From Halogranum gelatinilyticum (GTDB taxonomy: Archaea > Halobacteriota > Halobacteria > Halobacteriales > Haloferacaceae): 64,000 nucleotides of DNA. The notes under the pieces are model-generated. The model had not been told where the DNA came from, made no database searches, and saw nothing but the letters and a program-made list of their open reading frames with translations. The translations under genes and the position numbers were made by a program. The stretch covers positions 124,001 to 188,000 of the forward strand of contig NZ_FNHL01000004.1 in assembly GCF_900103715.1 (NCBI RefSeq), read 5' to 3'. Shown piece by piece: positions 7,415-14,296 of this stretch. Position 1 is the first letter of the stretch; every line of letters starts with the position of its first letter.

Positions 7415-7801
7415 GATTTGGATTCGAACACTGTAAAACACCTCTGAAACACCAGATTTCAGCCAGAATGAGAATCCAAGAGGCCAACAAATCGAAGGAA
7501 CTGTGGTGAGATGTGCCTTCGAGACATCCCCCGTGAGATGAGTGCGTGCATTCGCCCCTCGACACTCTCCCACTCACGCTCACACTACACCAACTACTGT
7601 CGGTAGGAAGACCGTTGGTATAGGTGGATTATACAGACTTTGACAAAGACTAGAATCAAAGCAATGGCACACCTCACACCCTTTCGAACCACCGGTTACA
7701 ATCCGCGATATCTTCAGTGAAGACCGTCGTACCGGACGTGAATAGAACGAGTTGTAGGACTGGTGGCACTTAGTGAGTGCGTGCAGCCGCTCCCCGAGTA
7801 G
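7415..7801. promoter_or_regulatory. 387-bp intergenic region with small inverted repeats
   Basis: No credible gene lies between the HNH start and the histidine kinase stop. The stretch is AT-richer than its surroundings. It contains an inverted repeat with 6-bp arms ACCAAC/GTTGGT at 7589-7619, which encloses a nested CGGT/ACCG pair. A near-perfect palindrome TCTTCA-g-TGAAGA lies at 7711-7723. A TATA-like sequence (minus-strand ATAATC/CTATACC) lies around 7618-7635. These could be the promoter and operator of the HNH gene, or the 3' end of the kinase transcript. Confidence 0.3.
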
Positions 7802-11702: not shown

Positions 11703-12119
11703 ATGAAATTCAACAACCTATTCAACACAGACGACCGCGCTGTCTCCCCTGTTATCGGGGTCATCCTCATGGTCGCGATTACAGTCATTCTGGCAGCCGT
11801 CATCGGTACGTTCGTCCTCGGGCTGGGCGATTCGGTGAGCGACACGTCGCCGCAGGCAAGCCTGTCGTTCGACTACACAGCAGATGCTGCCGACAGTACG
11901 ATTGAAGTCACTCACAGCGGTGGTGACGCAATCCCCGAATCTGCGACGCTCACGCTGAACAGTGACGTTGCCGCGCTCGATACTACAGACGAACTCGGTA
12001 GTGAGCTGACGGTTGGTGACACGAGAACGGTTGGCATCGACGCAGAACTTGAAACGGGTGACACACTCAACGTCATCGTCGGCGACCGCATCGTCGCGTC
12101 GTGGACCTACCAGGGCTAA
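11703..12119 (+). CDS. Archaeal type IV pilin-like protein
   Basis: 138 aa from ATG 11703. A class III signal peptide is present: a short charged leader (MKFNNLFNTDDRA), the hallmark VSPVIG at the processing point, and a ~25-residue hydrophobic helix rich in Ile/Val/Ala. A prepilin peptidase (PibD) would cut just before VSPVIG and the helix would form the pilus core. The remaining ~95 residues are a Thr/Asp-rich beta domain, typical of haloarchaeal adhesion pilins. No other pilus-assembly gene is in the window, so it probably uses an assembly system elsewhere. A T-run at 12141-12145 follows the stop. Confidence 0.88.
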   Translation: MKFNNLFNTDDRAVSPVIGVILMVAITVILAAVIGTFVLGLGDSVSDTSPQASLSFDYTADAADSTIEVTHSGGDAIPESATLTLNSDVAALDTTDELGSELTVGDTRTVGIDAELETGDTLNVIVGDRIVASWTYQG

Positions 12120-12137
12120 GCCCACACAACTGAACTT

Positions 12138-12148
12138 CGATTTTTCGC
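12138..12148 (+). terminator. T-rich terminator after pilin gene
   Basis: CGATTTTTCGC lies 20 nt past the pilin stop. Short T-tracts are sufficient archaeal termination signals. Confidence 0.4.
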
Positions 12149-12200
12149 GCAGACGACGCTACTGAGTTACATCGTTACTCAACACTCTTGAGACCCCACG

Positions 12201-12444
12201 AGCGACCTCTCCAATACTAAGTCGCTTGCAAAATCAGAGCCGCACAGCTCACGGAGTCAGTCAATCAGCGTCAAATCGCAAACGAGAGGGATGTCCGACC
12301 GGTGTCGGGAGGCACCGGTCGGACGGGCTGTGGGGCGTACAGCTGGCGAGAAAAGCGCCAGCCGTACGTCGGCCGAGGTGCGGGCGTGTGCGTCGTGTGA
12401 CGCACATGAGAGCTTCGCGCGGTCTCACTTGTCAATCTTTTCAC
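12201..12444 (+). ncRNA. Candidate structured RNA with three or four consecutive hairpins
   Basis: The convergent gap between pilin and kinase genes (12120-12484) holds no ORF of coding character but several inverted repeats in series. They are: AGCGAC/GTCGCT (12201-12226, 14-nt loop); a perfect 12-bp stem GTCCGACCGGTG/CACCGGTCGGAC with an 8-nt loop (12293-12324); a 12-bp stem with one A-C mismatch (12336-12368, loop AGAAAAG); and a perfect 8-bp stem TGTGCGTC/GACGCACA with loop GTGT (12387-12406). A T-rich CAATCTTTTCAC follows at 12433-12444 on the plus strand, a plausible terminator. It does not match any RNA family I recognise. It could instead be a bidirectional terminator or a decayed mobile-element end. 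Confidence 0.4.
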
Positions 12445-12484
12445 TCTGCGACCCGTTTCGCGAGGTGAACCACAGTCCCGAGGG

Positions 12485-14161
12485 CTACGGTCCCGACGAG
12501 GGGGGCGGGAGGCGTGGGACGCCGACGGTGACGACGGTGCCGCGTGACTCCGGCGTCGCGAACTCGACCCAGCCGTCGGCAATCTCGACGCCCCACTGGA
12601 CGAGCCACAGTCCGAGCCCGCTGCCGTGGTCCAGCGGTGTCTCGGTGCCGTCGCGCAACACGCGCAGTTCGTAGTCCTCGATGCCGGGCCCGTCGTCGGC
12701 GACTTCGACGATGACGCGGTCGGCCGTCGTCGTCACCGTGATGGAGACGTGTGGCTCGGGGGCGGGGTTGTGTTCGACCGCGTTCTCGACGAGGTTGGTG
12801 AAGACGACGTCGAGCAGACCGGCGACGAACACGTCGTCGGCAACGTCCGGAACCGAGATGGTGGCCGCTGGCGACGCCGTGCGAACCGTCGAGACCGCTC
12901 GGTCGAGCACGCTGGCGAGCGGTCGCGGCGTCCGTCCGGCCGTGCTTTTGTCGAACAGTTCGATGGCGTCGCGCCCCTTCTTGCCGAGTTCCTCGATGCG
13001 GAGCGCGCGCTTTTTGACGATCTCCGCGTCCTCGTCGTCCGCGAACCGGTCGACGTAGCCGTGGATGAGGTTGGTCTCCGTCCGGATGTTGTGCCGGAGG
13101 ACGCGGTTCAACACGGTGAGCCGCTGTTGCTGGCGGAGATGTTCGCCGATGTCGTGGAAGGTGACGACCCGGCCGATGGTGTCGCCTCTGACGTTCGTGA
13201 TGGGCGTCACCGTGACGTCGTAGGGCTGTCCACCGGCGGTGTCGCCGACGAGCAGATGACCGGGAAGCGACCCCTCGTCGGGGAACTGCTCGTAGTCGGG
13301 GATGACGTCGGCGGCCGGGGCACCCAACAGCGTCGGTGCGGCGGTGCCGAGGAGGTCGACGCAGCTGTCGTTGACCTCGACGACGTAGCCGTTCATGTCG
13401 ACGACGAGCGCGCCGTCTTGCATCCGGTCGAAGAGGAACTTCCGGGCGCGTTTGTTCGGCGCGGGGCTGGTCCCGAAGAGTCGAAACCGCGTGAGCGCGC
13501 CCAGATACGCCACGCCGGAGACGGAGAACGCGACCGGCGTCGGGTCGATGCCGGAGGTCGCGAAGACGTCGGCGAGAAACAGGACGTTTGTCAGCCACGG
13601 CACCGACAGTCCCAGGATGAGCGCGGTGCTCTGCCCGCGGAACGTCACAGCGTCGCTCGTCAACAGCCCGAGAAGCGGGATGATGCCGCCCAGTCCGAGC
13701 AGGTAGGTGTAGGCCGCGATGACCCAGTACCACGGGCCGCCCTGGGTGACGAGAAAGACGCCGGTCCGACCGAAGCCCAGGGGGCGGGCGTACAGCAGGT
13801 CGTGATACGGCGTCGTCAACGCGAGGACGACCGTGATGGCGGGGACGACGGCGAGAAGTGCCACGTACCGGGGCCGGATATACTCGTCTCGGCCGGTGTA
13901 TTCGAGCGAGAACAGCAGCCACGCGACCGGGATGATCACGACGCCCGGCCACGCGAGGTCGGTCCAGAGCAGCTTCGCGTCAATCGTCGTCGCCTGGAGC
14001 CGGAAGATGAGACACGTCGACCACCAGCTCTGTCCGAGCAGGAGCGCGACCAGCGGTTTCGCACCCGGTTCCGAGCGGACGCGCCACGCAAGAATTGTGG
14101 CTGCCGTGCCGACCGCGACGGACAGAAACAGCAGCCCATAGAGGATCGTTACGGAGACCAC
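12485..14161 (-). CDS. Membrane sensor histidine kinase (7TM-PAS-HisKA-HATPase)
   Basis: 558 aa from the chosen GTG at 14161. A longer frame from a TTG at 14257 exists, but a TATA-like box lies inside that extension and the shorter form starts directly at helix 1. Seven membrane helices (about residues 1-220) form a 7TM histidine-kinase N-terminal sensor. A PAS domain (~240-340) follows, then HisKA with phospho-acceptor H357 in VLRHNIRTETN. The HATPase has N-box ENAVEHNP, G1 VEVADDGPGI and G2 DHGSGLGLWLV. It probably senses a membrane or extracellular cue. No response regulator gene is adjacent. Confidence 0.9.
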   Translation of the reverse strand: MVSVTILYGLLFLSVAVGTAATILAWRVRSEPGAKPLVALLLGQSWWSTCLIFRLQATTIDAKLLWTDLAWPGVVIIPVAWLLFSLEYTGRDEYIRPRYVALLAVVPAITVVLALTTPYHDLLYARPLGFGRTGVFLVTQGGPWYWVIAAYTYLLGLGGIIPLLGLLTSDAVTFRGQSTALILGLSVPWLTNVLFLADVFATSGIDPTPVAFSVSGVAYLGALTRFRLFGTSPAPNKRARKFLFDRMQDGALVVDMNGYVVEVNDSCVDLLGTAAPTLLGAPAADVIPDYEQFPDEGSLPGHLLVGDTAGGQPYDVTVTPITNVRGDTIGRVVTFHDIGEHLRQQQRLTVLNRVLRHNIRTETNLIHGYVDRFADDEDAEIVKKRALRIEELGKKGRDAIELFDKSTAGRTPRPLASVLDRAVSTVRTASPAATISVPDVADDVFVAGLLDVVFTNLVENAVEHNPAPEPHVSITVTTTADRVIVEVADDGPGIEDYELRVLRDGTETPLDHGSGLGLWLVQWGVEIADGWVEFATPESRGTVVTVGVPRLPPPSSGP

Positions 14162-14187
14162 GAGTGTGATGGATTCTTTGCTCCCGC

Positions 14188-14195
14188 TATATGAA
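14188..14195 (-). promoter_or_regulatory. TATA-like box deciding the 7TM kinase start
   Basis: The minus strand reads TTCATATA, 27-34 nt upstream of the GTG at 14161. It lies inside the alternative longer frame, so it argues for the downstream start. Confidence 0.4.
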
Positions 14196-14296
14196 ACATC
14201 CGCCCAATCACGTCGACCAAACGCCAGAAACGGCCGTTCGTGACTCTCAGACGACAAATTCGGGGACTAGGTGAAAAAACGGAGGAGTCGGGTCGG

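Follow-up and report, generated by a model that had tools for sequence, protein, structure and literature searches.

The question raised by this locus is what a dense group of inverted repeats is doing in a gap of 365 bp (12120-12484) between two convergent genes of a haloarchaeon, one encoding a type IV pilin (plus strand) and the other a 7TM-PAS histidine kinase (minus strand). The window analysed here is a stretch of 64,000 nucleotides (positions 124001-188000 of contig C4 in the haloarchaeal genome G000), and coordinates refer to it unless a contig or another locus is named.

Hairpins in the gap between the pilin and kinase genes

A coding origin of the gap was rejected from the codon-position GC of its open reading frames, which bears out the initial annotation in its claim of a non-coding gap. 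The three strong stems listed there were all found as inverted repeats (Table 1). A weaker stem at 12201-12226 is also present (8 pairs including G-U, around a long loop), but it lies outside the unit that proved to be conserved. The plus-strand T-tract at which the hairpins were said to end amounts to four T residues (CTTTTC, about 12437-12440) and is not the terminator of that unit; instead, 12436-12441 is the complement of an A-rich stretch directly before a promoter-like box on the minus strand.

Folded as RNA, the segment 12180-12450 is stabler than 200 of 200 dinucleotide shuffles on both strands, with z values of -4.8 (plus) and -4.3 (minus). A plus-strand fold with long-range helices was dropped because relatives back only three local hairpins, all on the minus strand. 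The density of inverted repeats had been described as far above expectation, and this holds for their clustering but not for lone 12-bp stems, which are not exceptional: an order-3 Markov sequence yields several per 512 kb in this GC-rich setting. Among the strongest stems in 464 kb of the own genome, taken as stretches, the tightest groups were those of the window gap and of one transposase gene. The latter cluster was rejected as a candidate; its three hairpins, with very strong stems of 15, 13 and 12 bp, lie within the coding sequence of an IS5-like transposase (locus L129, 5831-6652; G000:C4:85831-86652).

Table 1 Features of the pilin-kinase gap and its borders, in window coordinates.
Feature	Position	Strand	Remarks
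Archaeal type IV pilin	11703..12119	+	Pfam Pilin_N 4.6e-25; convergent neighbour, outside the element
Predicted structured RNA	12277..12405	-	Match of covariance model R1 at 12408-12277; putative 5' end 12405, first base of hairpin A; 3' border tentative
Conserved TCTCG	12283..12287	-	Just past hairpin C; common to most aligned copies
Hairpin C, GTCCGACCGGTG-CCTCCCGA-CACCGGTCGGAC	12293..12324	-	Inverted repeat 12293-12304/12313-12324, 12 bp, 100% paired; C-rich loop 12305-12312; double changes in 7 of the 12 pairs modelled
Hairpin B, CGTACGGCTGGCG-CTTTTCT-CGCCAGCTGTACG	12336..12368	-	Inverted repeat 12336-12348/12356-12368, 13 positions, one mismatch; loop CTTTTCT 12349-12355; double changes in three pairs of the stem
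Hairpin A, TGTGCGTC-ACAC-GACGCACA	12387..12406	-	Inverted repeat 12387-12394/12399-12406, 8 bp, 100% paired; stem GTGCGTC/GACGCAC nearly invariant among copies
TATA-like box TTGACAA	12429..12435	-	23 nt ahead of the first paired base of hairpin A
7TM-PAS histidine kinase	12485..14257	-	Pfam HisKA_7TM, PAS_4, HATPase_c; upstream of and co-oriented with the element

Homologous copies and conserved architecture

Comparison of the gap by blastn with 60 relatives, the genus, plasmids and phages returned only the gap itself or chance matches, and a pattern scan of viral contigs gave no match. Relatives were instead reached by motif searches, via a hairpin with a CTTTTCT loop behind the orthologous kinase gene of the sister species G002 (L006/L238), where it reads on the strand that corresponds to the minus strand of the window. 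When that G002 stretch was used in blastn, further copies emerged in G002 and in a third genome, G001, with hairpins A, B and C in the same order. Six copies from G002 and G001, with the window copy and the kinase-linked copy of G002 left out, then served to build a covariance model, R1. Searched against 391 genomes, R1 found the window copy (C4:136277-136408, minus strand; window 12277-12408) at 53.4 bits and E=2.6e-12, as the only match below E=1 in the whole of G000, and it recovered the other left-out copy at 39.8 bits. The window copy shows the layout of the family: hairpins A, B and C in order, CTTTTCT in hairpin B, and TTGACAA 23 nt before hairpin A.

A second model, R2, comprised nine intact copies including that of the window. 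Across the three genomes of the genus examined there are about 15 clear R2 copies, one in each of G000 and G001 and the other roughly 13 in G002. The assembly of G002 has a contamination rating of 11%, and as so many of the copies sit there, many are kin through recent duplication. A further 391 genomes of the class gave no convincing additional copy. We discounted weak model matches of about 20-31 bits in further genera (G028, G100, G115, G054 and others): the four from the class search that we inspected lacked the three-hairpin plan. The family is thus essentially confined to the genus level among the genomes searched. R2 also gave two related copies in G067, of another genus (L240 7701-7812; L241 about 7680-7795), with a longer hairpin A and the loop CATTTCT in hairpin B.

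The initial annotation had named compensatory stem changes in homologues as a check, and such changes were found. In an alignment of 11 copies, 94% of pair cells hold standard pairs, compared to 24-45% for slid structures. Both partners have changed in 11 pairs, where shuffles give 3.3 ± 1.3 (0/500), and covariation scores 0.272 against 0.164 ± 0.013 (0/500); the nine intact copies give 10 such pairs against 2.7 (0/500), all of these being supporting evidence rather than probabilities, as the alignments were fitted to the model and kin sequences can exceed such shuffles. Most of the double changes are found in hairpins C and B, with 7 and 3 pairs respectively; hairpin A hardly varies. The six closest copies alone give a weak covariation signal, and so the signal stems from the divergent copies, that of the window included. 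The stems also hold 26 G-U pairs and 8 A-C mispairs, among copies that share ancestry; since the two roles swap on the opposite strand, this bias favours an RNA of the minus strand.

The unit common to the copies has a length of about 180 nt and comprises the TATA-like box, a spacing of 23-24 nt, and hairpins A, B and C. Copies in unrelated neighbourhoods are similar only from about -31/-20 to +138/+151 relative to the putative RNA start, so that the box and the three hairpins travel or stay together. Hairpin A has the consensus GTGCGTC-N4-GACGCAC. Eight of the nine intact copies share the same loop in hairpin B, and the ninth has CTGTTCT there. The stem of hairpin C is variable and its loop is mostly C-rich. 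No conserved T-tract or T-run follows hairpin C in the copies. Minus-strand terminator calls in the window are weak; they fall within or after the unit, at 12376-12358 and near 12254-12237. A subfamily of three copies in G002 (L256, L257 and L258 on contigs C49, C38 and C51) has hairpin A as GGCGTC-N4-GACGC and a longer spacer; the copy on C51 adjoins a truncated tnpB.

Of 13 copies examined, 11 have a T/A-rich 7-mer whose end lies 23-24 nt ahead of the first paired base of hairpin A. It reads TTGATAA in most copies and TTGACAA in the window (together TTGAYAA), with TTATATA in the kinase-linked copy of G002 and TTTTATA or TTTTATG in the subfamily just described; TTGAACA also occurs. The archaeal TATA box is centred at about -27 from the transcription start, and the start would therefore fall on the first base of hairpin A. 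We infer that TTGACAA is a promoter with its predicted start at this base, 80 nt beyond the stop codon of the kinase gene.

Taken together, these comparisons of sequence show that the unit is homologous among its copies, structurally constrained, and placed on the minus strand. The suggestion in the initial annotation that this may be a new structured RNA thus gains homologous copies and compensatory changes, and its statement that the hairpins fit no RNA family agrees with Rfam 15, which gave no match at the gathering cut-off for the window and eight related loci. Its strand, its borders and the role it gave to the T-tract were wrong: the covariance model, the box and the G-U bias all place the unit on the minus strand, and conservation spans about 12277-12435 rather than 12201-12444. 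Below the Rfam threshold there were weak matches only, none overlapping the element; AAC_AAD_leader was rejected, with E=0.03, far under the cut-off and outside the unit.

A candidate small regulatory RNA and its alternatives

Our preferred reading, which we consider reasonably probable, is that 12405-12277 of the minus strand belongs to a multi-copy family of structured RNAs in this haloarchaeal genus and works as a small regulatory RNA. The product would be a non-coding RNA some 130-150 nt long, started from the box at hairpin A, and this 5' hairpin may shield it. The pyrimidine-rich loops (CUUUUCU, and C-rich loops such as CCUCCC) might bind purine-rich sites in mRNAs or a dedicated RNA-binding protein; mRNA binding by the C-rich loops is proposed by analogy with many bacterial sRNAs. 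The family would have spread with plasmids and other mobile DNA, and the kinase-linked copy may represent a resident locus that predates the separation of G000 and G002 and has been retained in both. Covariation defines few RNA families in archaea, where knowledge of regulatory RNA comes chiefly from transcript maps made in a handful of model species. Because this family comes with a model, about 15 copies, a predicted start site and conserved loops, its expression, partner protein and targets become testable. If the reading is true, it would also be an instance of archaeal plasmids bearing several copies of a structured RNA.

That the palindromes cluster by chance in GC-rich DNA is highly improbable. 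Perfect stems of 10-12 bp do arise by chance in such DNA, but homologous copies with covariation, and the match of a model built independently of the window copy, already contradict this explanation. We also judge it fairly unlikely that the hairpins are a 3'-UTR element ending the upstream mRNA, here that of the kinase, for stabilisation, processing or termination, in which case the box would be no promoter. Such an element would agree with the gene maps, from which we counted a co-oriented nearest clear upstream gene in 9 of 10 independent neighbourhoods, and with the same kinase gene preceding a copy in both G000 and G002. However, the box is part of the conserved unit, its spacing staying at 23-24 nt while its sequence varies. 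The distance to the upstream gene ranges from about 25 to about 680 nt, and a terminator would have no need of three different hairpins. A general link between element and kinase was itself rejected, as kinase orthologues beyond G000 and G002 lack such hairpins. The pilin was likewise rejected as a partner, with no such hairpins behind the pilin gene of G001 or a paralogue in G000 (G000:C2:385643-386059) that is 64% identical to the pilin adjoining the element.

A transposase-free mobile element of the PATE, MITE or SMR type, with palindromes serving DNA mobility and any RNA incidental, seems improbable to us, though several features of the copies recall one. The family is multi-copy and mostly found on plasmid-like contigs, where many G002 copies are accompanied by ParA, Orc/Cdc6-like, DUF7342 and other plasmid-type genes; two copies (L230 and L231) are decayed, and flanking stretches have been swapped at the element between copies. 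PATE, MITE and SMR elements are common in haloarchaea and are, like this family, short, multi-copy, transposase-free and rich in palindromes (PMC3119063). The family differs from them in that no terminal inverted repeats were seen by eye at the ends of the unit, in its promoter-like box, and in its compensatory changes and G-U bias, which point to RNA. Its tie to TnpB is limited to one truncated case: with R2 and blastn, a related hairpin was found at 1 of 30 TnpB (IS605-type) loci of three genomes, beside a truncated tnpB. Finally, the kinase-linked copy has been kept in G000 and G002 with rebuilt stems and without decay, although the rest of the intergenic DNA no longer aligns between the two genomes.

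The reading as a small regulatory RNA can be set beside known sRNAs. LhrC-like sRNAs occur in several copies per genome, and their hairpin loops could pair with purine-rich mRNA sites. LhrC of Listeria is a multicopy sRNA with C-rich loops (PMC4132741), but it is bacterial and has no known homology to the present family. The Haloferax volcanii RNAs SHOxi, sRNA132 and rancRNA_s194 are likewise intergenic, about 100-250 nt long and of predicted structure (PMC12482152, PMC6104027 and PMC6560208). As described, they stand apart from the window family, a family predicted from sequence whose many copies all follow a fixed plan of three hairpins. In the open literature consulted on haloarchaeal sRNAs and transposase-free elements, no such layout was described; most subscription papers and sequence supplements lay outside this search, and priority is not proven by it.

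Two of the plasmid copies adjoin a gene pair (L235 8276-9454; L239 6010-7086) that encodes a DUF7342 winged-helix protein and a protein of 160 aa. The latter gave a sub-threshold match to the toxin TumE, and the pair is a possible toxin-antitoxin system.

A different element with the same loop

The apex CG-CTTTTCT-CG also occurs in a different element, group I, which many genomes of the family carry at a single locus following a nitrilase or SRPBCC-type gene. As in the window family, a TATA-like box lies about 24 nt ahead of a hairpin with this apex, and more hairpins follow; unlike the window family, group I has a single locus, other stems, and an internal loop in hairpin 1. The latter reads TGCCGAC..GACG-CTTTTCT-CGTC..GTCGGCA, and hairpin 2 is formed around CGGGGTC. 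Hairpin 1 has 5 double-changed pairs against 2.4 in shuffles (6/500), with 0/500 for the covariation score. The invariance of its loop is no evidence of constraint, because the copies were gathered by searching for that apex.

It is conceivable, though we regard it as rather unlikely, that the hairpin with the CUUUUCU loop and its closing CG pairs acts as a recognition module in both the multi-copy family and group I, bound by one shared RNA-binding protein or target, such that plasmid copies could mimic or titrate a resident RNA. Group I has no match in Rfam and is possibly an unlisted haloarchaeal RNA. Its copy in the own genome lies at L184 975-1069 (G000:C9, near 94791), and further loci are L172, L180, L171, L174, L177, L178, L085, L095, L096, L074 and L179.
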